NCBI RefSeq assembly: GCF_003073045.1
Contig: NC_037593.1
Coordinates: 2,843,525 to 2,907,524, forward strand
DNA: 64,000 nucleotides
Source: Pomacea canaliculata
Taxonomy: Eukaryota > Mollusca > Gastropoda > Architaenioglossa > Ampullariidae
Direction of reading: 5' to 3'
In this document: positions 8,264-57,800 of the stretch, in pieces
Position numbering within the stretch: position 1 is the first letter of the stretch
Layout: every line of letters starts with the position of its first letter
Made by a program: the position numbers and the translations under genes
Notes under the pieces: generated by a model
Seen by the model: only the letters and a program-made list of their open reading frames with translations
What the model was told of the DNA's origin: nothing
Database searches by the model: none

Positions 8264-11200
8264 TCAATGTCTATCTTGTATATTCTTGATGCTGTAAATA
8301 TTATTTAGAACTCGCTTGTCAAATGACAGAACTTTGGATGGTATGATGGAGAAACCATTCTCAATGTTCTCCTTGTAGCATAAAGCAAAGTGACGATTGG
8401 CATCAGAGATGGTTGGATCACTGATGTATTCATCAAGCTGTGGAAAAGAATTGCAGATTGAAGCAATAACACATTTGCTTTTTCAGAGCTAAATGTTTTG
8501 GTCTGTGTCATCAGTATGTTATATATATTTTGAATCAGTTTGAACACGTGCTTTCAGTGTTTCGTATTCTGACAATGTTTGTAAGTTTACAATAAAGTGG
8601 AGGTATGCGCTATGTAAAACTGTATTATTATTATTAAAATACTAAGTACAACTTGCAGTGTCTCAGACATGCATAATACAGTGTGAGCCTGACTTTTGTA
8701 CTAGTTTTGTTCTGTTTTGTTGCATGCTCCTCTGAGGAGAAGAGATCCTTGCATGCTGGAAATATAAAACTTAGAAAAATGTCAGTATCATTTCCATGCT
8801 GAAACGTGAAAACTTGCGAGAAGTTAGTAACAATATTAGCTCATGTGAAAGAAGAAGCATCTTCTTCCTGACCAAATGAAATAATAATTCAAGACTGGAA
8901 AAAGAAGAGATGCACCTACATCCATCCACTGACAATCGGAGACTTCTCGAGGACATGGTTTAATTTCTTGAGTAATTGGTCGCATGACGCAAATGAAATA
9001 GATGTCAGAACAACCAAATCTGTAATTGTGCTGATGTCGGAATGCTAAAAGGGACACAAATTCACACTCCACACCAGTCTCTTCTAGCACTTCCCGTTGA
9101 GCAGTGTCGATCAAATCTTCCCCTACACACAGATTGCATCCCATTGACTGAATGCATTATAATCAGAGAAATCAAAAATGATGTTGAAAATTATAGAAAT
9201 GGCTTTGTGAAGGTCTAAATGGTCTCCACTACCTCAGAGTAACCATTATAGATGTAAATGGAAAGCAGTGTTGCCCAAAAGTCTCAAGAAAGGCTAGATA
9301 TATATATTGCAATATTGGAAAAATTTGTTAAAGCATCTATATCTATGGTGGAAAACATTTAAACTACCATAGCTAAAGGTGAAAAAAATATAGGCTAAGC
9401 TTTTTTGAAAACAGCTATGGACGAAAGTTTTTAAGGTTTTATGAGCTTTGTACCCTTGTTTGCATGTCCACCTGGTAATTTCCAGGGTGATTTCTTATTC
9501 TGCCCATACCGCTCCTGCATCACAAGTAGCTGGTTCTTTTCATTAACCACAAAGCCACCAACACCTTCAAGAAGAAAGATTTGTGGTTTTATGAATGAAG
9601 TCTTGTCACTTCTACAGGCACATCTACATTCTCACATTCTACATTCTCTAAGAAGTACTGGAACTAGAAGACTATTTTATAGGTTACATTGTAGTTTTTT
9701 TATATTAATGATCTGCATATTATCTGCCAACCAAAATGCTTGTTTTAAAGGGTCAATCTCAGAATGATTTCACCAGCCAGGTGAGCTGACCTGTGTGCAC
9801 CGCTACAGGTGCTTACATCCAACTCAGTCTGACGAGACAGGGGTGTACTAGGTACATAGCCAAGCTACTCACTGTCCATTTGAGTTGCCTACAGTTTACA
9901 AACATAAGTTTACATCTATGTTGATGTTTGCAGATGCAGATTAGATGGGAGCAGTAAGGCAGACAAATGTAGTTTAGACATAGTTTTTAACATCAGCATA
10001 TCTCACTTGACTGATGTGCTTTATAAATTTAAATCAAACACCTACTAACCTGATGTTTGTGTTTGCTTACCTATATACTGATTGGCATATTCTGGTAATT
10101 CATTGGGATGGTTATCGCACATCCACAATGTCATCATGACGTAGCCAGGCTGAGCATGATGAAAGTCAAAACCCATCTTTAAAAGAAATGGACAAAAGTT
10201 CTTTTTTCACCTCAAAAACAAAGTTTTCATCAAATGGATGAAGCACTAAAGATTTTCAAAAATTACAGTCAATACCAGTCATTAAAAATATTGGCTATTG
10301 GAAGTAATTGTCCAGCTCCACTGTTAATCACTCCTAGTTCTCCTACCTCTGTAAGCAGTGGCACTAGACTGGAGTGAAGAGAAGCCACTTTAATCCAAAG
10401 TCCTCTCTTTCCACTTACTTTCCATTCTGACACTGCACCTGCATATTTTGACACATAGGATCTGTTAACATTTTTAAGTGAATGCTGTGCACTTGAAAAT
10501 GTTTCAGATGGTCATGCCTAGGCTTAAATGTGCCATTTATACTTTTAATACTACATCTCTTAAACAGATGCAAGTGATGAAGACTTGATGTTGAATACCT
10601 TCAGAAATATGTGATGCTGACACTTTTGCAGCATTTATTAACCAAAGTTGCTAAAGCGTCATTATCAGGAAAACCCATATTACACCTGCTCTATGTCCCA
10701 TATTTTCTTTGATAAAAAAACAACCCATGTACACCAAAGGACAAAGTCACTAGTTTGAATTTGGACCTTCTCTGAACTTTGATGTACTAGCAACACACTT
10801 GCCAAACATCTCTTTGATGCTTACATAAAACATCTTGAAAACTGGAATTTATTTTCAACATACTCCCATATTTGGAACTAAAGTGGGTTTTTAATAAAAT
10901 ATTTTAAATTGAGTATACCATGTCAAGGAATGCTAAATTATAATTCTTTAACATGACTATTATGGCATGCTACAAAAAATATAATCTTTTAAAATACTTT
11001 AATCAAAATTCATTTCCTAACCTTGAGACATTTTTTATGATTGATCCCTCAAATCTAAAAGCTGGGTTGTATGTAGTCATTAATATCAGTCTCCTCAAAT
11101 ACTATCAACAAAGATAACAGTATCATTTGGTCTATGATACCTTTTAGGTTTTGCAAAAATACTGCATCATCCTTGAAAGACTGTTGAGCAGTATCTATGG

Positions 11201-12424: not shown

Positions 12425-13803
12425 TCAGTCCAAGCCTTCTCTATCTTTAAAAGCTTTTTTCAAGTCTAATCTTTTCTTGTTTTTGCTTTTCTTTTCTTGG
12501 CGGTTTAGGGATTTCTCCCGCTCCTGCTGTGAGAGAAAGCTTTCCTCTTGGTGAAGGAACAAATCCACCCTGTCTTGTAAGCGTTCTCGTGCCCGTTTCC
12601 GATTTGTCTCCAGTGAACGTGTTTCGTGACACTGTCAGGACATAATCAAACAGAATGAAGAGTGAAAAATAAGCAATTTTTATGTTCTGTTCTTTTCTCA
12701 AACACAAGACATACATTGCATAAAAATTTCTCTCCCTTGCCTCCACCCACATACATTTACCCTTACACATGTGTGCACATAGGTACACATATCAAATTAT
12801 TCACTTTTTGTTTTATGATATTCAAACCCTTTGAACACCATAGTTTTCACCTGACTTTTGACAAGATGTCAAGATCTCACTTCCCTACAAGTTTAGCATT
12901 TAGTTTATTGCAGGATTTGAATTCCTTTAATTTGCGTAAATAGTTATGTTCTGAGATACACATCTCGACTCAAACAGCATCAACTATCATGTAGAAAGAG
13001 GCCAAGGCCAAGACCATGACATCACTGATGTACAAAAGCTACTTCGGCTATGCCTAACTGACCAGATCAATTGGTTCTTGTAAGCTCACTAGCACTTCAG
13101 TCATCTAAAAATTTAGGATGTGCTGAATTGAACACATTATTTAAATAAAAAATCTACATCATCAACACATTATGATAACATTGGTAACATCTTTTGAATT
13201 ATCAGTAACTTTCAGAGCTTGTGTTTGAAAACATTTGATGACATCTCTAGGGGAAAAAGCAATCACCTTGACAACAATTCCTGTGGGTTTATGCTTGAGT
13301 ACAACACAGTTAGCAGTCTGGTTCACTGACTGCCCTCCAGGGCCACTTCCTCGCACAAACTCCTCTTCTAAATCAGCCTTCAAGAGTTCTGGAAACTGGT
13401 AAGTCTTTCTTGACACAAATCGCACATGTCTCTGGGTGGGATTACCTCTGGCTCCAGTAGTTTGCAGAAGTTGAGTGCCAACTGATAGGATCCTTGCACA
13501 GAAATGCCTAAACTGTTCCTCTCTCAAACAGCATGTTGAATTTGAATTTCCCAAGTTTAACTGTTTCTCACTGACAGATCTCTTTTGAAAGTGTGTGCCT
13601 CTTGAAGCCTTATTACATGGCAAAAATAGCTGTCTTTGATTTCTAAGATTTTGCAGAGGAGATGACCTTAGATACTGGTAATAAACAGGAACAGTGCATT
13701 TCCTGTTCAAAACCATTATAGACCCAAGGAGCAGTGACATTTGAACTGTGAACAAAGGATTCCGTTTGAAACTAAAATCTATGTTTTTTTTAGCATATAA
13801 CAT
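12425..13803 (-). CDS. MTRFR: Mitochondrial translation release factor in rescue (MTRFR, C12orf65)
   Basis: Class-I-type peptide chain release factor homolog that rescues stalled mitochondrial ribosomes. Two coding exons: 13803-13267 and 12631-12425; 744 nt, 247 residues. The first ATG with a purine at -3 is 13803; a second in-frame ATG at 13740 ([10 protein letters not shown]) gives 226 residues. The N-terminus is basic and poor in acidic residues, as expected of a mitochondrial presequence. The core [20 protein letters not shown] carries the catalytic GGQ and matches human [20 protein letters not shown]. The intron falls after GIVVK. Exon 2 gives [18 protein letters not shown] and a Lys/Arg-rich tail, which is the ribosome-binding C-terminus of the family. 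It lies head to head with MPHOSPH9, as in human. Identity is secure; the start is uncertain. Confidence 0.93.
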
Positions 13804-14579
13804 GATATCTATAACAAAATACTTTATAGTTTTCACCTCAATAATAACTGTTTTACAATCACGAGAAGTTTTGTAAACTTACAGTTCATCAACATTACAT
13901 TTGATATAAGCAATTCTCATGTACTTCACCTGTACTGTTTAAGGTCTGCAAGTGTGGAGATATGGTCAGTACAAGATACTACAACCCCAAATCTGACAGA
14001 ATAGACACTCTTCCAGTCTCTAGAAAGAAGCCAGTGAACATTACTATGCACAGAAAGTGGTCAAAACTGTGACATGACCATATGTTGATCATGCCTATGA
14101 AGGTATAACTGTTTTAGCTCTCTCACTGGAAAAAGCTTTGATAATTAATCCTTTCCTAATATCTAGATTTTCCTCCTCTTTCTGCGCTCTTGTATTTTGA
14201 GGATGGAAGAGGTGGGGGATACTCACTTTGATTTGGGGAAATATGCTCAATCATTTGAAAGATTTTTTGTACTTTAGCAGACCTTTGAATAGAATAACAA
14301 ATCATTTTAAAATTCATTCAGAAGTGTATTAAAATTAGTTGTGAATACTTAGAAAAAGATACACCGTTCTTTTACTACTTTTTTTTTTCATCCAAGATTG
14401 GTTTATTTGATAGGAGTTACTTTTCATTACTGAAGGATGGGTGGGTAATAAAAATCCCCAACAACCATCCCTCACGACTAATACTGCATCCAAATTACAA
14501 CTGAGTTTAATAATTTATAAGATAGCATTTAATGAAGAAATGACAGTACTCGTAGTAAAAAGCGGGTTTTAAATGGTAC

Positions 14580-44175: not shown

Positions 44176-44829
44176 GCGATTTCAGGGAGATAATTCTATC
44201 AAAACACGCTCGTCTGTTCGGCGTCGCACGAGGTTTCATTCTGGTATGGTATACAGAACCCATGTCTTTATTAGCTTGTTGGATGCAGACGTTTGGACAA
44301 GATTTTCTAACCTTTCATTTCTTAGTTTAGTCTTACAGACTTTTTCATGCACTGTGCTACTCTACAGCATGAACTAGCAGTAGACTGTATATCGTCGATC
44401 AAGAGTTGCGCAACAAACACCAACCACCACTTTAGCCACAGTTACTAATAAATAAAGAAATAAAACATTGTTTTTTGTGTGACGTCTTGTGATCTGGGGC
44501 GTAATTGTATCAACAGCACATTGGGGGCTCCGTTTCCGAGAATTAGACATACTCATCTAAATAAGCATGTAGCTCAGGTTTTACTCCCTTACCTGGCATA
44601 CCTTTTAACTTGCCGGATTCTCACCCTCATACTAACATCTCCTGGCTGGTACCAGCTGACGAGCGCTTATTCTGCACCCTTAGTGGTGTTTAGAGGTACC
44701 ATATCTACTGGGCTACGCATATTAACAACTTATTATGGAATGCCCATGAGTAAGCTAAATAACTTTTTCGGTCTGAGATTTGACAAGCAGTTGAAACGGA
44801 AAAATTTCTTTCAGATTGCAGCAAACCCG

Positions 44830-47760
44830 ATGGGCAGTCCAACAATGGAGTTTGACCGGACTGCAGCCATGATCTCAGCCACCATTGGTGTGGGGCTTGG
44901 CATTGCTATCGGCTGGGGTTTAAAGGGCCGTAATTCAAAAGCAATCACAAAAAACGTTTTGGAAGATGTAAGATGCTTGACTTTGCATCACGAAGCCTGT
45001 GATAGAGTCAATGAACCACATGCCCACTGAAAATTTAAATGCATTTGGCCATAAATGTTAGCAAACTGCATATATCATAGTGAGAAGTAAGAGTAACAGA
45101 TTAGTTCCCTGCCCATTTTTATAAAAGGTTGCCTAAAAATAGACCTGATTTGTACTGATTGCGTGGAAGGATTGCACAACTGCTCGACATCTGCACATAA
45201 TTTTTAAGCTCTTTATGCTAGTAATAAGTTTAAATAAGGAGACAGATGTCTTTTATAGTGTGTCATTTGGGGAATATATATAGTTTTAGGGATGTGTTCT
45301 GAATGGACATTTCAGGTGACAGAAACTGTAAAAGTCATGGGAGATAGCAGGGACCGCAAAATGGTGCTTGTGGTCAGAAATGATCTGAAGATGGGAAAGG
45401 GGAAGATTGCTGCTCAGGTAATATTGCTGATAATTTTGTAAACTTATGTTTACACTGGTTTCATAAAGAAAGTATAGTAGTATATTTCACTTAATTACTT
45501 CTCAGAGACCAACAACCAAGCTAATCCAGGAGTTCTGACCACACAATCTTGTATAGGCTAGGCTAAGCTATGATTTTTGGTAGTTACATGTATTATATGC
45601 ATTTTAAAACTAAGGAGTTTAATGGGACATAACCCCATAAGTTGAGCAGTATCTGAATTTGTAAAGATGAATAGTATGTTAGTCTCTCTGCACTTAGTTT
45701 TGAAAAATATAATTTGATATGTATATATGAATTTATTGTAGTGTGCACATGCAGCTGTAGGAGCTGTAGAGAAAGCCAGCCGAAAAGATCCCAGCAATCT
45801 TCGACAGTGGCGCCTTACTGGGCAACAGAAGGTTGTTGTCAAAGTAGAAGATGAAGCCTCTTTGTACGTATGACGGTGGTTTTTGTTTTTTTCATTTAAA
45901 CCATTATCCTCTTTGGATCTAGGATTAACTTATGTTCACAGAGATATGTGAGTAGGCCTGTTGTGTTATACCCCAGTTTTTGTCACCATGTGACATGTTA
46001 TTGTGGATCAGAAACTTAATATCTTTGCATCCTAGTTGCCACATTGATCATTTACAGGCATTGCATGAAATTTTGATTATTCTGTGTATAGTAAGAAACA
46101 GATGTCTTAAATACATAATTCTTATGTATAATGTGTATTATTCATATGTAATTTTAAAATTGAATTTAATCATAGCACAAAAAACTATGAACATCATACA
46201 AGAAACTTGTTACAGCATTTAAAAGAGTTTCTTGCATTTTACCTAGAATGATCTAAAAGAGTGTTTATTTCTTGTTTATTTTTGTTACTTATGTGTTCTT
46301 ATATTTAATATTTATTTAACATGTTTTAATGTAACTGCATTAAGACAAGTGATGTTCTCTGCATGTGCAGGCTAGATCTGGCAGAGAAAGCTATAGCATC
46401 AGGACTAGTTACCTGTCTCATCAGCGATGCTGGTCGTACACAGATAGCTCCTGGTTCTAAAACAGTCCTTGGTGTTGGACCAGGTTAGAAAATAATGATG
46501 CAAAAATTTTTAAAGCGCATACTCACACTGCTAAGGAGCATGCTTTTAGCGCTTAAGAATAAGATCGAGCCATGGACAACATACAATGGACAGGAAAAGA
46601 AACTACTTATGAAATATGAAAGAAGAAACAACAGCACTGATAATGAGTATAAAAGAATACAGAAAATGCAAAGAGGAACCAACTAATAAAGACAGAGTAT
46701 CATGATTTTGCTTAAGGAAGATGAGCAGGAAAGTAGCAGTAAGCGGAAATGTGTGTGAAAAAGGACTAGCATTGTGGGAACTGGTGTTAGGAGTAATGTT
46801 TAAGGAAGAGGTGCGTTTTCAGTTCATGAAAAAAGAAGGGAGAGGAAATGAGCATGCAAATAACGGAGAAAACATTAAATGCCATGAATGCTGTTTTTTG
46901 TAGACCAGGAAATAATCATGTGTGTTAAAAGATGCTAGTAAAGTACAGCGTCATGCTCATTTGAGTGATCTTGCTATGCTTTACATGCAGTGTTGATATA
47001 AATTTGGATGATCATGAAGCTTGAAGGAATATGCAGACTGAATTGATTGTTAATTCCCTCCCCCATATTTTGATGTCTATGCCCATATAGATGCTAATTT
47101 AAAGAAGCTGGGTTGATTTTTATTAGTCATTTATATTATTATATTAATTCCAACTAACCTAATCATTGACCCTTCTATTATGGGTTTATACGCACCATAT
47201 GACTAGTGCATTCTATTCCTCCCTCCCATAAAGACAGTCACATACAGGCAACGGATGTTCTCCCACTGTGCTGGTAGGCAGTGGAACACTCTTCCACATC
47301 ACATTCGCCACTCTGACTCCAAAGCTACGTTCAAACGTTCTCTGAAAACATATGTTCACAAAGTACTATCCCTGAAATACTATCCTTAACTCCCTGGCAG
47401 TACTGTCACGTGAACCATCAAGTACAGCTTCAACTGTTTACAGTGTCCTTCATACCTTCATCCATTGCTTTACATTTTGCACCTCCACGTATCTCACTGT
47501 TCACTATCTGTTCATTTATCATATCTTGGTTGTGTGCTTTGCAAATTATAATTTTAATAACCCATTATTATTATATGAATCTCAGTCCTGGGGACATTTA
47601 ACTAGGGATTGAATAATAATTTTATTTATGTGTAATGTTTAAAACTGACAAAAAAAGTTGACAGTATCAAAGAGTTAATTTGAAATGTTACTTTTTTTCT
47701 TTTGTTTTAGGACCTTGTGAACTGGTGGATCAAGTGACTGGACATTTAAAACTACTGTGA
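44830..47760 (+). CDS. PTRH2: Peptidyl-tRNA hydrolase 2, mitochondrial (PTRH2/Bit1)
   Basis: Pth2-fold enzyme that cleaves peptidyl-tRNA, anchored in the mitochondrial outer membrane; in animals also called Bit1 for a role in anoikis. Exons: 44830-44967, 45316-45417, 45742-45863, 46371-46483, 47711-47760; 525 nt, 174 residues (human 179). The start at 44830 ([10 protein letters not shown]) precedes a hydrophobic anchor, [15 protein letters not shown], about residues 15-30. A longer upstream open frame exists but lacks similarity. The catalytic core is intact: [16 protein letters not shown] followed by [14 protein letters not shown], then [30 protein letters not shown] and the C-terminal VTGHLKLL. 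Every residue of the Pth2 signature ([22 protein letters not shown]) is present. It lies divergent from ANAPC7 across 890 nt. Confidence 0.96.
47225..47580 (+). mobile_element. CR1/L2-like LINE 3' fragment, second copy
   Basis: Aligns with the 3' part of the element at 27535-28380 (blocks such as gcagtggaac..cttccacat, cgttctctgaaaaca, ctccctggca) and ends in an ATTATTAT tail. It lies in PTRH2 intron 4. Confidence 0.7.
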
Positions 47761-49634
47761 ACTGTGTGCATTTGTGTGTTGGGAAGGTATATGTGTACAT
47801 GTATGATGTATGTATCTTTTGTGAATGCAGATCTGTCCATAAGTGTTAATTTATATCCTGTAGCAAAGGTTTTTTTTCAAGTGCAAATGGTCACCAACAA
47901 TCTCTCATTCCTCAGTCTGCTACCACAATGTCCACAGCACTAAAATAGTCTTACTGGATATGGGAAATCTTGATGTTTACCTTGTTAGATAGTGATCGTT
48001 GATGTGATTGAACATTTTTTTCTTGCTGAGACAACTCATTGATATTTATAATATTTTGGGGTCTGCCTAGGTGACCTTTGTGTCTTTCTTTGGTAGAACT
48101 CAGGCTGTGCTAGTGGATGGCCATCTATTGGCAAGCACACCTTTGGGATCCCTCAGAATTTGTTTATGCACAAAGCTTTTATCTCTGTTGGTTTGGTCTT
48201 ATGCTATTTCCAGTCAATTCTTTGCCTATAAAGCTCATCTCTACAGTTCTGTCTCATCTTAGATGTCACAAACTGCTTTTCAGAATTAAGAATCATGCAT
48301 CTTAGAGGTGAAATTTTGGATGGTTGCAAACAATTTACAACTTAATGATAATAAAAATAATAAAAAGTTGGCTTCTATAGCACCTTATTCTCCCCCGTGG
48401 ACAAGCTCAAGGCTCTTCACTGCTGAATGAAATGATAAGTGCACTTCACACTTTGGCAGATGGGGTGGTCCAAAGACATCTGTGGGCTGTACTTTGCCCA
48501 CCCTTGTAATAGAGGCTAATGAAGCCATTAGGGGTGAACCTACATCATGTCTACTTAATGATACCTAAAGCTAGTATGTTAATAATAAATAGCTAAGGGA
48601 ATCGTATATTGTCAACCATCACTAGACATGAGTGTACATTAAAAAATAAAATTGACTTCCCGCATTACCAGTCAAAATGGACATGTTAAGAATTTTTATT
48701 ATTGTACATTAAATGGACAGATAAGAGTATGTTTGTATACAAAAGGGGAGAGAGTGATGCTGATAGAAAATGATATGCACTCACTTGCTTGTAAAGTTTC
48801 TAATTAATGTTGGCTTTGAAAGGTATGCAATTTGTCAAGTTTATTTTTTTGAGAGTTTATGAACCTACAAATTCGATGTTTTGACCAGTTTTACATGCAG
48901 ACCACACTTTCTTGGTGAGTTGTATGTTCTGCATTTGTCTGTATCTGTACTTGAATACATTTCTTTAATTCAGTCTTGCAGTGTTGCGTTGTATATATTT
49001 AGTGACTAAAATATGCATGTCTAAGCACATTAATGACCAACATTCCTTTGGTTTCCCCTTACCTGTAGAGGAAATCCCACCAAAAACTTAAGTTTTAACT
49101 TGTGATGGGAAATAATTCATGGTCTATCATCTAAGCCAGTAGTGCCAAAGGTCTTCATTGGACATGAGATAAAATCTTGCTGGCCAGAACAAGGTGGTTT
49201 TGCCAGTATTGTGATGTGAAATTATTTTGTGTCTGGTTAAAATGAGTGGGCTAAACTTTCTGGTTTATCAGTAAACATGGACATATTTACAATTGTCACT
49301 ATTTCATATGAGCAGCTAACCATTTTTTTTTTTTAATATGCTGATAGTTGACTCAGAATGCTAAATAAGTGGTAAAGATAACTGGTTATTTCACATCCAC
49401 TTCTTGTAACATGAAATTTATTTATGGGAAAATGGTCAGGTAACAGGCATATGCAAACTTTTGAAATTATGCAACTGTACATATATACACATCCTTTGCT
49501 CTTCTGTTCCACCCCAAACAACATTTCTGTACAAAAGGAAAATTTAACACTTACACCAGTGCTTATGGTGGAAAGTATGTTCAGGACATAAATAACAGTA
49601 ACTCTGCACCCAGTTTTAGTTCAGTCTATTCAGT
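47761..49634. other. PTRH2 3' flank and intergenic, convergent with KptA-LRR gene
   Basis: No coding signal. Minus-strand AATAAA at 49422-49417 lies about 215 nt past the KptA-LRR stop and is a good poly(A) candidate. A repeat tail is at 48345-48440. Confidence 0.45.
48345..48440 (-). repeat. Dispersed-repeat 3' tail
   Basis: An AAT-rich run followed by ctatagcacctta...gacaagctcaaggc; on the minus strand it reads GCCTTGAGC..TGCTATAG..ATT, the common LINE/SINE-type tail. Confidence 0.35.
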
Positions 49635-52151
49635 TCACATTGCCATGCCTCTAGGGTAGACAGGTTGTATGTGCACAGAGTTTCCATCTTTATCCTGCTC
49701 TTCCAGTCCACTCAGAATCACCACAATCTTATGCTGTGTACGCAATTCACGAATCCTCTGCCTGCCTTCAGGTGTTGTTTCCAAACAGTAAACATCCAGA
49801 TGTTTCAGCGCTGGGGCCGTTTCCAGTAGGTAAATCACTCCAGTTTCACTGATTCCTTTGTTTGAACTAAGGCCCAGCACCGTAAGTTTAGGTAAGCTTT
49901 TGGCAAGCATTTTAATGCTTTTGTCTGTTATATGATTGCACCCAGTAAGGTTCAGAAAGTCCAGATTTGGTAGCTCCTGCAAGTGTATTTGGAGAATAAT
50001 ACTTTATCATGAGTATAGATCAGTTTTATGTACAAATGACTTAAATTCTCTCAAGACTTAGAACTGCTCTAATAAAACTGATTTTATTTATGAAATAATG
50101 CCACTGCAACATATAAATAATTGAGCTGTTAGTTTAGAAGCAGATATTTCTTATAAAATATTTTACACCCAGATATGGGCTGACAGCTTGATTATAGAAG
50201 TAGCAGAGGATGTTTACTACTGTAGGCTTTGACAGGCATTTTTGTTTTAGTGATGACTGAAGCTTGGAGATTACCTGAACAGTGTCTAAAATATATAAAA
50301 ACACTACCTTGCACAGCTGTGTGAGTACATTGTCAGTGATGATGTAGCTACAATTACGTAGGCTGAGACTCTTCAACTGTTGGCACTGGTGGTAAATGAT
50401 CTTCAAAATGTTTGGGGTCAGGAACACATTTTCAAGGTCAAGATGTTCTACTGCTGGTACCAGAAGCACCTTCAGCTTCTTGTTGTTCAGCTTTTTGGTC
50501 CTTGCAAGTCTTCGCAGCATTGATCTGTGCACATTATGTGTTTCAAATTATAATGTCAGTATAAGACCTAACAATATGTGTGAATGCCTTTGGATGCCAA
50601 GTGTTACTGAGAAATAATCTGCTTTACATTATCTTCTTCTTTGCTCATATTATACACATCAGGTGTTGGGGGGGGGAATTGGTGTTTTACGCCGTGTCAG
50701 CAGCTAAGGCTATATTACGGCAAGCAGCCAGCCCTGTAAACAGATGCCACGTGCAGAGAAAGATCAGCGTGCCCGAGACGAGAAATGAACTCAGGGCAGC
50801 CAACCTTCACTGTATTGGTGACAGGCGCTAACAGCGCTAGCCGTTGCGCCACCGGACCGCTCACATCAGGTGTTAGCAAAGGTTAAAGAAAGTAACTGGC
50901 CAAAGACATTGAAAGACACTGCAGCTGTAATGAATGATTTTATGAATGGACTGACCATAGGAACTACTTAACAGTTACATTATGAAGTACTTACGTTATA
51001 AGGTACTCGTCAGGAAGGTCCTGGAAGTCATAGTCCTGCAGGTTGTCAAGAATAGTTTGCATAGACCTCTCAAACAGGGTGAGCACCTTACATCCATCAT
51101 GGTATGGATTCTGTTTGGGTGAATACACAGAGACTATCAGAAAATTGTGTGACAAAATTTTCAATGTGACTGACAGAACTTATTTGACCAAAAAGCTAAC
51201 GTAGGTGTGATTGGACATATCTGCATTAATTAACTGTTGCATGATAAAGGACTTTCCAAAATGTAGTGTTCATGATTTTTGTGCAGTAATTATAGATTTA
51301 GGACGAAAAATTTTAACGACATAAAGTTTATCTAATAATCAGGCAAAATCATGTTGAACATTACTTTTTCCATGTTCCTCCCATAAGCTGCCCTTACAAG
51401 CACCTTCTCATTGTTTTTATGAAGAGTGAAACGGTTTGATCCACGATGGGAAGAGGAATTCTGAATCTCATTTATAACCTCTGCCTCTGAGTATTGAGAG
51501 AGCAATGGCAATGTCATGAGCTCTCTGAAATCTACAAAACCTGCAGAAAATGATGTGAGAGGTTGATCATTTGGTCATACATTTTAAATAATAAAATAAT
51601 ACTGTGAATTTATATTGTGCACTTCAGTACTTAACAGAAGGCTCAATGCACTTGATAAATGAAAGGCAAATACACTAAAAAAGACAAACATAAATGCATA
51701 AACACTTGTGGGCATAGACCGAAACATGTCAGCAAATGGACAGAGATTAACAGCCATAAACACAGGACATACAGACATTGCACATGCACCAAAGAGAGAA
51801 AATATTGCACCACAATCATCATCAATAAAAGATAAATTCTGAAAAATTAAAAGGGACACGAAGAATATTCATGTGATTTTAAGAGATGTTAAATGGTCCA
51901 CGAGGCCTAGGCAAATGATAGTCACTATTACTATTACTACAATGACTCTTCTGAGAGATAACTGAATTACATTCATCGTACTGGTCCTTACCTGAATCAT
52001 CCACCTGTAGTCCCTCTTTCCTCGCTCCGTAACGAAGTACGTAAGTCAGCCGCTTCGACAGTCGTTCTCTTGCTGACTGTTCGTCGTGTTTATCGGAGGA
52101 AGAGTCTGCTGCCTGTTTATGTGGCAAACTGTCGTAACTTTTGTCGGACAT
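49635..52151 (-). CDS. KptA/TRPT1 N-lobe plus leucine-rich-repeat fusion protein
   Basis: Function unknown. Exons in gene order: 52151-51992, 51540-51365, 51110-50995, 50524-50308, 49976-49635; 1011 nt, 336 residues, phases compatible at every junction. Residues about 28-112 resemble the N-terminal winged-helix lobe of tRNA 2'-phosphotransferase (TRPT1/KptA): ERLSKRLTYVLRYGARKEGL, GFVDFREL, RFTLHKN and VLVRAAYGRN against human LSKALSYALRHGALKLGL, GFVPLGTL, RFALQ and LLIRANQGHS. The catalytic LRH is LRY (Tyr41), GH is GR (107-108), and the ADP-ribosyltransferase C-lobe is missing. Residues about 113-165 resemble the helical start of zyg-11/FBXL-type proteins. Residues about 172-312 form cysteine-containing LRRs (VEHLDLENVFLTPNILKII, LKSLSLRNCSYIITDNVL, LDFLNLTGCNHITDKSIKML, LTVLGLSSNKGISETGV), AMN1-like. 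A pseudoenzyme or adaptor role is inference. Two genes read as one cannot be excluded, but the shared reading frame speaks against it. Confidence 0.82.
50655..50874 (-). mobile_element. tRNA-derived SINE with perfect 13-bp target duplication
   Basis: Target duplication CACATCAGGTGTT at 50655-50667 and 50862-50874. The body, 50668-50861, read on the minus strand begins GAGCGGTCCGGTGGCGCAACG (shown to 20: gagcggtccggtggcgcaac), with an A-box-like TGGCGCAACGG. A B-box-like GAGTTCATTTCTC follows, then the 3' part ends ...cggcgtaaaacaccaattc and a C/G run. It sits in the intron between KptA-LRR exons 51110-50995 and 50524-50308. Perfect flanks suggest a fairly young insertion. Confidence 0.85.
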
Positions 52152-52439
52152 TTCACCAGATACTTGGGGGAGAAGGACCCACAAGAAAAGAATAATTTCA
52201 AGAAATCAGTAACTGTTGTTGTGTAAACGAAAAAGCCTCTTAATGTTACAGGATGTATTCGCGATTGTCAGTATCCTGATTGTCATGGATCCACAAGGCT
52301 CAAACATTAATCGTATAATGCAGGCACAAACACTCATACTTTTTGCCCACTAGAGATCTTCACACGCAATGTGCGTTTCGTTACCCTTTTATAAATCCCA
52401 CTTGTCACTGAACGGGAAAACGACTATTTCAATATGATT

Positions 52440-52560
52440 GTGTAACAGGGTGTAGCGTCATCCAATGAACGGGTCGTTTTCAGTCATGTGATACACGTTA
52501 GCAACGAGATGCTGCCCGCCATTTTGCTACCGTCACGGTGCAAGATTTTAAGCGACTCTC
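52440..52560. promoter_or_regulatory. Candidate promoter upstream of the KptA-LRR gene
   Basis: CCAAT at 52462-52466 and a YY1-like CCGCCATTTTG at about 52516-52526 lie 300-375 nt upstream of the ATG at 52151, in a locally CG-richer patch. Assignment is inference. Confidence 0.35.
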
Positions 52561-52666
52561 ATCTGTTTGTTGCCATATCTGATTTACTAACTACAAGTTC
52601 TCACTGCCACCCGATGTGAGACTTAGACATGAGTCAAAAAACGAAAGGAATCGGCGGCTTAGATCA

Positions 52667-52866
52667 TGGCCAGATGTGACCGACATATATGACGTGTACG
52701 CCTATATATATATTGCCCGCAGACGAGTTTCTTGAGCAGTAAAATGTGATTAATAATTTTCTTGTTGTGGCCAGATGTGACCGACATATATGACGTGTAC
52801 GCCTATATATATTGACTGCAGACGAGTTTCTTGAGCAGTAAAATGTGATTAATAATTTTCTTGTTG
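52667..52866. repeat. Tandem duplication, two units of about 100 bp
   Basis: 52667-52767 (101 bp) and 52768-52866 (99 bp) are nearly identical, differing mainly in the length of an internal (TA)n and in tgcccgcag versus tgactgcag. They lie between the divergent KptA-LRR and NPRL3 genes. Confidence 0.92.
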
Positions 52867-53369
52867 CGCAATATTCTCTGCTAGCAAAACATTTAATTGT
52901 TTACTTCACTAGAACAACACTTGCTTTAGTGTTTTTTCACTACTGCAGGAAATAACGAAGTGTATTAATTTATACTTTCTACAGATTTCATACTTATATT
53001 AAAATTAATTATACGTGTGCTTGTAATTGTTATATGTTTTTGTATACATTATGATTGAAACGACTTGGGGAACAAATGTCCTTGTTGCTAGAGTACTTAA
53101 TTGCTGTCCACCAGAGAGAGAAAATATAACGTCCATCTTGCAAACGAGTTGGAAATTAGTCAACGGATCAGTTCTCACAGTTAGTGGACTAGCAATTAAA
53201 GATGTACTATATATAGCAAGAAGCCGACATTGTGTTTAGGCTACTCATTATATTGTTGTACAACTACTTAACAATTATGCTAGCGTTCTATTCGACCACT
53301 ATATGTGTATCTCACTGTCCTATTCAGTTACTTAATTTATATCTCACTATAATATCACTAATTTCACTT

Positions 53370-53810
53370 CTTCTTATTCCTTTTCGCCCCCAGTGGAGCA
53401 TAAGGCTGCAACTACAACCCACCATCGCACCCAGTTCTGGGCGTCCCTTTCCACTTATGGGACCATGTCATGCCAGTTGCCTCCGCCTCCCTGTGGACCG
53501 ATTTCCTCATGTCTGTGTGGCTCTCCCAGCCCTGCACCTCCCCAGCTGTGGGTTCCAGCCCAGCGAGCTTTTCTTGTTAAATTGTCGGCTGGCTTTCGCA
53601 GGGTACATGTGACCGATCCAGCCCCACTTCCGCTTCTTGATGTCTTGGCTGGCAGGTTTTGGGTTGGAAAATTCTCTCCCACAGATCTGCATTGGCGATC
53701 TTTTCGGGCCATCTGATGTTGAGGATGTGGCACAGACATCTGTTGACGATCGAATGTCTGAATCTTGCTGGTGATAAAGTGTTTGTCACACGCCAGATCT
53801 CAGAGCTGAA
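53370..53810 (-). mobile_element. RTE/endonuclease-RT-type LINE, truncated copy B
   Basis: The same family as 42462-43170: minus strand NIRWPEKIANADLWER, IKKRKWGWIGH, then PAKASRQFNKK and NPQLGRCRAGRATQT. It is shorter (C-terminal region and 3' end only) and has several frame breaks. The 3' boundaries of the two copies agree (cttcttattcct...gcccccagtgg on plus). Confidence 0.83.
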
Positions 53811-54879
53811 TGTTAATAATATAATATCATGTCATCAATAAACATCTACAACAAAGAAGTATCCACTTATAGGAAGCAATTTTTTTTCATATTTGAAATC
53901 AGTATAGTAAATTGCACATCACAACACCCTATATAAGCTGTTGGTGCATTCATGAAGAAATTTAATCCCTCGGTGTCATAAACACTTAGATACATATAGT
54001 ACACAGTTATGGTCGGTTGACATAATTTCTATAATTAATATCAACTATTTTAATGCGATTTCACTTCTTTTTTTTTTTTTTTGGTCTTAGAAATTTTGGG
54101 CAGACAACACAATATTTTCCCACCATTTCCTTGACGTCCGCTAAATAACACTTTATATTTATCCCAGAGGGCGATTCGGGGAAGCTTGATATAAAAGCAT
54201 AAACTATACCATAACCTATTCATATCCGCCAAACAGACACAGTAACATTCAGAAGTCACACGGCCGCTGAACCAACGATCGAAGGATCGACAGCCTGCCT
54301 GCTGGTCCTGCTTGCAGGTACACAGAACAGGCAGCCCGATGAGATTTGGAAAAATTCTCCCGACAGGATCGGAGACCGTTTCCAGGTATATTTAAAAGTA
54401 GGGACAAGTTCCACCTCCTTGTTGTAGGAATTGGTGGAGAATTCCAACAGAAATCAAAGACAAAATTAATTCTTTGGTATTATTACCTTAAGAAAGAAAA
54501 AGAAAAGGAATTATTAATTTTAATGGGCATTTACTATTTACTTAAGATATTTCGGACAACTGAAATTTACTTTTGGATTTATATTGAACATTAAAGCTTG
54601 CATTTTCTATGCAAATTTTTGAAATCGGACAGCTCGGTGGTGAAAAGTTCTTTGTGCACCGCCGTGTATAATTCGCGGTGAAAACGAAAGGACAAACAAG
54701 GGTAGGAAGAGTTCCGTTTGAAAGGGAGGTAACTGAAATCACGCACAAGTTACGTCCCCTAAAGTTGTGAGTACATGTATGTTAAGACACAAACAATTGC
54801 CAGCATAGTGCAACCAATAAAAAGTAAACAAATTTAATAGAAAAGCTAATGTTTCATGCGGGAAATTTTCAAATAAACA
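53811..54879. other. NPRL3 5' flank
   Basis: No coding exon seen. A T run lies at about 54067-54082. An ATG at 54880 begins NPRL3; no clear core promoter motif. Confidence 0.4.
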
Positions 54880-57800
54880 ATGTCGGAGCTGAATCCAGTG
54901 GCAATTATTTTGGTTACGTCAGGTACAAGAGGAGACCGACTTCTGTTTCGTTATCCCTTTGAGTCTGAAAATGTCAAAGAAAGCTCGTTCATATCGCGGC
55001 AAAATCCATACGCCCTTAAGATTTCTGAAGACAGGTTATCCGAAGGAAGAAAGCAACAAACATCAACACTGATTCACAATAGCATGTTAGTTGGATTTGA
55101 AGACAAAACTCTTGCAAACCTGTTGGCAGTTAAAACAAGACTTTGTGGCAGCAAGTTCAATGTAAAGATCGACGAAGTCAGATTTGTGGGGTTTCCAGTG
55201 CAGCTAGAACATTCACCGAAGTCCACATCAAAACAGCAGCAAACACAGGTAAAGGCTTGCACACTTGTGTTTACACTATCAAAGGATTTTAGAGTTATTA
55301 TTTTAATTACGATATTCAGCAGTTAGTAAACTATGTAGGTTGCTGGCATTGTGCTGCACATCATATATAAATATAGAGGTTTAGGTTGTAGTTTCAACAA
55401 TAAATGAACTGTAATTGTCATCCAAGTCATAAAGTTTTTTAAATTAAAAAAAAAAAAATTGAACATTTATTTCATAAGGTAGGGTGCCCAGTGTCATTTT
55501 AAATTTGTAATTGGAAAAACCCAATTGTTATCATCTTCTATAAAACAAAGCAAATGCACATAGTTACATGGACATTTGCACATACACAAGCACACATATG
55601 TATATTAATTTGTCTGATAAACATGCATAAGTACACAGATCAATAGTGGTATCATTCTGTTCTAATGGTTATATACTACATCAAGTCTTAGAATTTATTG
55701 CATCCTTCTGCAGAAAGTAAACATAATGTGCATGCACACACAGGTGACAACATTTCTTTTACTAAATTATGCATGTATGTGTAGTAATTAACATTGAACA
55801 AGATGATGATTTTCTGAATTTTTTTGTTTCTAGAATGTCACAGGGAAACACCATCGGATCAACACTGTCAATGCTGTATTTGCCTTGAGAGCCAACATTA
55901 TAGATTCTGCAATAGACTGCTACCATACTTTGGCCAAACAGCTTATAGTTGCTTTGCGCCATGAAGAAGAGCGGTGTCAGTACCTATCGTTACAGTCCAA
56001 GATCATTCGCTCAGTGTTTGATGAAGTAGCAGCCCTACCAGAGGATTGTATTAAGAATCCTTTCCGCCTCATCCTTCAGAGGAGTCAGATAGCCAAGGAA
56101 CTCAAGCAAGTTTATGTGGGTCTTGTTGAGAGGGGAATGGTTTCTCTTCATATTAACAGATGGATTGAAGTTAATTTCTGTATGCCTCACAAGGTTTGTA
56201 TCACATAGTCATATAGTCATTAGCACTAAAGGGTAATATTAATAAGCATGTTATGTTTATGCTTACATACTTTTCTCTTCTATTTTGAGGTGAGGGTTCA
56301 ATCAGTCAGCTGCAAAGATGAATGTCAACACCTTTTAGGAACTTTTTCCACTTTAAACCTTGTTCATGACCATGTTTGAGCCAGGGATTGAAATACCCTT
56401 TTCTCTGGTTAAGGAAAAAACTGCAATTGATTCTACTTGTTGATTGCAGTAAAATAGGTTGAAACTGAGAATCTTTCAATTGAGGTACAGCTTAATGGTA
56501 TCCAAATGAATGGCAGTTTAATAAGATAATCTTGTCTTGTTTTAGGCTTGCTATTTTATTTTTAGATTTGACCTCCAATTTATCTAAGTATTGCTTTGCA
56601 CTTCGCAGGTTCATGTGATTGTCACAGGATCCCATGTAATACATCTTGAACCAGAGGACATGAAACGATGTCTGTCATCTTTGCGGCCATATCATGGACT
56701 GCTTTTCCTACAGCCAGAAGGTGAAGTCTTGGACAGCCTCCCCATGGATGCATCCCCAGCTTTGGTGCGGATGATCAAGATGGTCACTCCACTAAAGAAC
56801 TTGCAAACGTTGGCCCTGGACTGCGATCTTAGCCTGTCACAGGTCAGCACAGAATGGACTTACAGGATGATAGATTCTTAACAGCTCTAGCATTCTTGGT
56901 CAGAAGCCCTAGAATCTAATTGCAGATGCACTAGCTGATGGTAGGTGCCACATCCAGAGAAAATTCATCTGCTAAATAAGGAGGCTATTACAGGGGTGGG
57001 AGCTCTCCATCCTGAGGATGGATTTTCATCCTGAGAAAAAAATCTTAGGGCAGAACAGGGACGGAAAGTAAAATTAAAATTTTTTTTTTATATATTACAA
57101 AGAGCCATGGACTATGAATCATAAAGTGATAATTCATTGTATTGTGGCAATAGATATCACTATTGTGTCCCTTGCTGAAACGGATGTTTCACAATATTGT
57201 GAACTATCAACGACAATGTATGACTTGTAATATGTGTGTTATAAGAGTGAAAACAATGAAACACAGATGCGACCATATGTGTCATTTAACGTTTTATGCG
57301 TATGCTTTAGTGCTACATGGTTCTCGAAAAGTCTTCAGTCCCAGAAAAATTTCTGGCTCCCACCCATACTATTACTACACATCCAAAGCTGAGAGAATCT
57401 GTGATATTATGTGATCATTAAGAATAAAGAATATTACTGAAAAACTTACTATGTATGTAAGTCTATGTTTTACAAACTTACCAGAAGTCAGAAGTAGTTT
57501 AAGAGCACATTTAAAAAGCTGGCCTTCGCATGGAAGCAGAAATGATATCCTTGGCTAAGATGAAGTATAAATTAGTGGGAAATATTTACTTATATATTAT
57601 TTTACGAATATTGTGAATATAACTAAAGATGCTAGCACAATATTTTTTTGCATTGTGAACTTGTTAATTATGAAATGTTAAGAAATGTTTCAAGTCTTTT
57701 ATAATGCATGTCTACATTTTACAGGTATTTGCACTGGCATGCCATCTGGTGTATTGGGGCAAAGCTAGAGTCATCTACCCTCTGTGTGAGAGTAATGTTT

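Follow-up and report, generated by a model that had tools for sequence, protein, structure and literature searches.

A predicted gene of Pomacea canaliculata joins the N-terminal RNA lobe of a tRNA 2′-phosphotransferase (Tpt1/KptA/TRPT1) to a series of leucine-rich repeats (LRRs). The gene lies on the minus strand of the window, the whole stretch of 64,000 nucleotides that was analysed, and from its sequence we consider the gene model, and the fusion itself, very probably real as a predicted gene. Our overall reading, held tentatively and at rather less than even probability, is that this is a real, intact shuffled gene whose product would tie a non-catalytic binding lobe to an LRR adaptor.

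The predicted gene and its two halves

Five minus-strand exons within positions 52151–49635 can be read as one gene of 1011 nt (336 codons and a stop), in which all four introns, of 451, 254, 470 and 331 nt, have GT–AG ends and the exon phases are compatible (1, 0, 2 and 0). The reconstruction, which gives a product of 336 residues, thus reproduces the five phase-compatible exons of the original prediction. The features, in window coordinates, are:

51992–52151, minus strand: exon 1, residues 1–54 with the last codon shared; N-terminal tail and first half of the Tpt1/KptA N-lobe (LSK...LRYG)
51365–51540, minus strand: exon 2, residues 54–112; second half of the N-lobe (GFVDF...VRAAYGRN), ending in phase 0, no more than one codon from an intron site of TRPT1
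50995–51110, minus strand: exon 3, residues 113–151; pre-LRR segment with the BC-box-like TLFERSMQTI (123–132), first Met at residue 129
50308–50524, minus strand: exon 4, residues 151–223; AMN1-like cap and first LRRs
49635–49976, minus strand: exon 5, residues 224–336 and stop; LRRs, then a C-terminal tail
52388–52393, minus strand: TATAAA 5′ of the start codon, a consensus match only
49417–49422, minus strand: AATAAA polyadenylation signal, a consensus match only

The Pfam family PTS_2-RNA (PF01885) matches the product at 5.3e-12 (46.6 bits; the curated cut-off is 26), and the match extends over residues 28–112 and only positions 3–85 of the 177 in the profile, corresponding to the RNA lobe without the NAD lobe. 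The best phmmer matches in the PDB to the first part of the protein are two tRNA 2′-phosphotransferase 1 chains (1.2e-06 and 1e-05). Among NCBIfam models, three for RNA 2′-phosphotransferases match (best 1.4e-09) and a further two hit the LRR part; all five score far under their full-length cut-offs. A tblastn search of the window with the C-lobe of the snail's own TRPT1 returned nothing better than E 1.5. The KptA/TRPT1-like N-lobe that had been proposed for this gene is therefore borne out by the profile check set in advance on residues 28–112, and the proposed absence of the whole C-lobe agrees with the end of the profile match at position 85 and with the tblastn result. In the second half, residues 177–302 match LRR families in Pfam, with LRR_At5g56370 (225–302) above its cut-off and the others, which begin from residue 177 on, below theirs.

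The frame used in the gene model is the best of the three sense frames in each of the five exons, in exon 1 by a margin of only 9.2 versus 8.8, according to a small codon model trained on 2118 codons, some of them from open frames of the window that are unverified. Absolute exon scores are within the spread seen for open stretches of the window that are non-coding, and codon usage by itself is therefore no proof of this gene. The predicted fold of the open stretch containing exon 4 has a mean pLDDT of 43.7, too low to be informative, and no gathering score was reached in an Rfam scan of 46000–56000. The predicted gene is presumably transcribed. By eye, a possible 5′-UTR intron would run from GTATGAG near 52340 to CCCCCAAG before the ATG, and its removal would strip out three upstream ATGs.

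The two halves might instead belong to separate genes or transcripts, with exons 1 and 2 forming a truncated TRPT1 copy that ends with a stop codon at 51332, and the LRRs a second gene that begins at Met129 or Met153. The reading frame of exon 2 does run on for another 10 codons beyond the donor, and each half is recognisable alone. However, intron 2, where the fusion would break, contains none of the AATAAA, ATTAAA and TATAAA sequences sought there, the exon 2 donor and exon 3 acceptor agree in phase 0, and the end of exon 2 is placed within one codon of the TRPT1 intron site. We regard two separate genes as improbable and continue with the single fused gene.

Several other elements were observed in the window. 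A SINE-like, tRNA-derived stretch (GGTGGCGCAACGGCTAGCGC...) is visible by eye at 50670–50860 in intron 3, and two near-identical direct tandem copies of about 100 bases each (52667–52866, with starts at 52866 and 52767) lie 5′ of the promoter region. A PTRH2-like peptidyl-tRNA hydrolase gene, recognised in pieces (44464–47760, plus strand; PTH2 at 2.6e-10 over 46330–46488, the start piece at 44464 and the end piece at 47662 by eye), is arranged tail to tail with the fusion gene. Upstream and divergent is an NPRL3-like gene on the plus strand from 54877, its end untraced (NPR3 family at 2.7e-07 over 54877–55323), whose first ATG is ~2.7 kb from that of the fusion. On the minus strand are an RF-1 domain stretch with GGQ (13165–13878; 3.8e-11), which by eye resembles the mitochondrial release factor MTRFR, and a NUDIX domain stretch (8839–9156; 4.2e-12).

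Resident TRPT1 and the origin of the N-lobe

A search of the animal's own genome (440,159,624 bases in 24 contigs) identified a separate, canonical TRPT1 on contig C8, with LRHG and RANQGHS, as the sole match to PF01885. Open stretches downstream of it encode the C-lobe (HGTYYKFW, RTHIHFA, MRNSCDLMIYLD and NVILSSGDENGVIAP), although its start codon is untraced and its last splice joins are provisional. The question of a separate full-length TRPT1, raised with the original prediction, is probably answered by this gene with its QGHS and C-lobe exons. Because the same search missed the fusion's own exons, it gives a lower bound on the number of copies. Residues 1–162 returned five matches in the genome, three of them the window exons and two at E 0.8 and 8.5, and did not recover the TRPT1 on C8; in these protein searches of the genome no second copy of the fusion was found.

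The intron positions connect the two genes. The first N-lobe intron is in phase 1 in both, within the Gly before Gly-Phe in TRPT1 and within the Gly before Phe in the fusion, and its place in TRPT1 is ambiguous by one codon because the acceptor, CCAGGAG, is tandem. The second is in phase 0 in both; it directly follows RANQGHSLV in TRPT1 and RAAYGRNMEK in the fusion, a difference of one codon. Since both introns match in phase and to within one codon, the N-lobe appears to descend from a TRPT1 that already had introns. Phase 0 is likewise the starting phase of the next exon in TRPT1, and a swap of the downstream exons would therefore preserve the frame. The intron agreement suggests that an LRR gene captured two exons of TRPT1 through a phase-0 junction. 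In the exon-shuffling event that we propose, these two exons, encoding the winged-helix RNA lobe, would have been joined at this intron to an LRR gene of the AMN1/FBXL type.

Between the N-lobe of the fusion and the resident TRPT1, identity is limited to 21 of 83 aligned residues, and the alignment score is slightly higher against human TRPT1 (100) than against that of the snail (94); these values suggest that the split from TRPT1 is old. The human TRPT1 sequence, like those of human AMN1 and ZYG11B used below, is provisional.

Tpt1 ligand-contact positions in the N-lobe

In CthTpt1, the ligand is contacted by Ser10, Lys11, Arg18, His19, Lys66, Arg68, Tyr80 and Arg121 (PMC6333775). An invariant Arg-His-Arg-Arg tetrad, His included, is essential for Tpt1 activity, whereas Lys66 is not, and replacement of the His by Ala in RslTpt1 slows step 2 only threefold (PMC6333775).

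Of the six RNA-lobe contacts compared (those listed other than Tyr80 and Arg121), the fusion retains four, with S32, K33, R40 and R103 at the positions of Ser10, Lys11, Arg18 and Arg68. His19 is replaced by Tyr41, Lys66 by Leu101 and QGHS by YGRN. The tetrad is thus incomplete: R40 and R103 are present, the His is Tyr41 and the lobe carrying the fourth Arg was not found. Arg121 of CthTpt1 we take to be part of this missing lobe. In the provisional human TRPT1 sequence, Leu likewise occupies the Lys66 position. The alignment agrees with the original prediction on all four of these points (R40, R103, Tyr41 and YGRN). Given the overall identity of 21/83 to snail TRPT1, the hypergeometric probability of keeping at least four of six contacts is 0.033, and that of four of five, with the non-essential Lys66 omitted, is 0.013, although in both cases the sites are conserved family-wide and so are not independent. 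The N-lobe is basic in both proteins (pI 9.45 in the fusion and 9.23 in snail TRPT1).

With no NAD lobe, and with two tetrad residues missing (the His and the fourth Arg), the fusion cannot transfer a 2′-phosphate in the known way, and judged from these sequence features its product has almost certainly lost 2′-phosphotransferase catalysis. The earlier view of this lobe as a pseudoenzyme accordingly stands, given that the C-lobe was not found and the tetrad His is replaced. The orphan N-lobe would most likely be a binding module, either for phosphorylated RNA through S32, K33, R40 and R103 or for a protein partner. That it binds RNA or phosphate is a doubtful proposition, though one worth keeping in view: the changes of the His, Lys66 and QGHS indicate that the phosphate site has been remodelled, and the residues that are kept may serve the fold.

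These same changes are what would be expected had the lobe been kept only as a winged-helix fold for protein docking or nucleic-acid binding, with no phosphate ligand. Other winged helices, foremost that of La, are similar to the Tpt1 RNA lobe (PMC6333775), but retention of four of the six named ligand contacts argues against a lobe with no phosphate ligand, a reading that we consider unlikely. We retain the binding module as our preferred reading of the N-lobe.

The LRR half and known proteins

The best phmmer match of the LRR half in the PDB is FBXL2 (1.8e-23), followed by FBXL17 and SKP2. In the snail genome, the LRR half has 30 matches, namely the three window exons and 27 others at 23–42% identity, the best of which, on contigs C2 and C1, are 28–32% identical. 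By eye, two of the open frames behind these other matches (L006 and L007) have the look of F-box/LRR proteins. An AMN1-like gene, found with the human AMN1 sequence, is present on C6 and is separate from the fusion. In our proposal the LRR arc would recruit a second protein, and the fusion protein would have an adaptor role. The lack of a close paralogue of the LRR half in the genome (best others 28–32%) also bears on whether the gene is a non-functional duplicate or a decaying chimera. Such decay would fit unremarkable codon scores and a basis of one genome, but 336 codons and four splice pairs are intact and the low identity of the N-lobe to the resident TRPT1 implies an old split, making decay very improbable.

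The original prediction likened the helical segment to zyg-11 and FBXL proteins and the LRRs to AMN1, and suggested a possible link to an E3 ligase. As far as the first LRR, residues 113–200 are colinear with human AMN1 (score 43, with 5 of 1000 shuffles as good), whereas the pre-LRR part alone (113–172) gives a shuffle fraction of 0.38, which is not significant; the AMN1 likeness thus holds for the whole of 113–200 and not for the pre-LRR part by itself. The ZYG11 likeness was not recovered, as comparisons of the fusion with a snail ZYG11-like protein and with human ZYG11B gave shuffle fractions of 0.15 to 0.83, not significant. Kinship of the AMN1/ZYG11 kind is within reach of this pairwise test, since the control pair of AMN1 and ZYG11B stands out (score 54, matched by 0 of 1000 shuffles).

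On a more specific form of this idea, the fusion would be a substrate receptor of an Elongin–Cullin-2 ubiquitin ligase (CRL2), with a VHL box in exon 3 and the target held by either the LRRs or the Tpt1 lobe. TLFERSMQTI (123–132) fits the BC-box consensus of PMC4878042 and lies just before the LRRs, as does the BC box in ZYG11B (PMC13201589), and the colinearity of 113–200 with AMN1 is in keeping with such a role. By shuffling, however, a motif of this kind arises by chance with a frequency of 0.32 in the whole protein and 0.035 in residues 113–170, and no strict match to the Cul2-box consensus quoted in PMC4878042 occurs anywhere in the protein. The AMN1 comparison is not significant for the pre-LRR part, nor are the ZYG11 comparisons, even though their control succeeds. 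No F-box family is among the eight Pfam families at E up to 1. With residues 113–194 as query, the PDB gave eight sequences at E up to 10, and none of their names is that of a VHL-box protein; the matches to YSP2 (0.0071), LAM4, a sterol-binding protein and NIPBL were taken as chance. For the suggested E3-ligase connection there is a BC-box-like motif whose chance frequency is not negligible, but no strict Cul2 box and no F-box match; the ubiquitin-ligase link is weak, and a CRL2 receptor rather unlikely. An LRR adaptor joined to a non-catalytic lobe remains our favoured description.

Compared with Tpt1/KptA/TRPT1 (PF01885), the fusion has the N-lobe by profile, LSK, LR-G, R103 and intron sites within one codon, but it differs in the absent C-lobe, the Tyr for the tetrad His, YGRN for QGHS and LRRs in place of the NAD lobe. 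With AMN1/FBXL proteins it shares LRRs, and with AMN1 colinearity over 113–200, but it has no F-box family match and carries an additional N-terminal Tpt1 lobe. ZYG11B, a CRL2 substrate receptor, has a BC-box helix followed by LRRs (PMC13201589), as the fusion has a BC-box-like motif followed by LRRs; the fusion, in contrast, has no Cul2 box, no significant pairwise similarity, no ARM repeats in the Pfam scan and the extra Tpt1 lobe. The closest published idea that we found is LRRC9, an LRR protein with a putative ADP-ribosyltransferase pseudoenzyme domain (PMC7955679). In human LRRC9 (1453 aa), this ART-like domain lies between LRR blocks (PMC7955679), whereas in the fusion a Tpt1 winged-helix RNA lobe is at the N-terminus. 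A mimivirus protein likewise links KptA to another domain, which is Nudix rather than LRR; it is termed a KptA ART domain, and LRRs are absent from the available text of that source (PMC9503650). A Tpt1–LRR fusion did not appear among the open-licence papers listed in the literature searches, and may sit unremarked in protein databases or other papers. The same architecture was confirmed in none of 41 pattern stretches from prokaryote genome contigs and none of 20 from viral contigs, and phages gave no match; these collections are uninformative on animals.

Tpt1 homologues occur in animals, even though the ligation of tRNA exons there creates no 2′-phosphate at the junction (PMC6333775). A CNPase-family gene is present in the snail genome. 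Enzymes of this family leave 2′-phosphate ends, and such RNA ends may therefore be made in this animal. Yeast-type tRNA ligase families had no match in the genome, but control genomes were equally silent, and this negative therefore carries no weight. One can imagine the fusion as a reader of 2′-phosphorylated or terminally phosphorylated RNA, in which the lobe would recognise the phosphate of splicing or repair but leave it in place, and the LRRs, perhaps with an Elongin-binding helix, would recruit a protein or ubiquitin ligase to places where RNA is cleaved or repaired; this is speculative and improbable.

The fusion looks like a clean case of exon shuffling, with the shared introns still in place. 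If nature has indeed parted the RNA lobe from the catalytic lobe, that would hint at a use for binding by itself, and the separated RNA lobe would offer a route to asking which phosphorylated RNAs exist in an animal.
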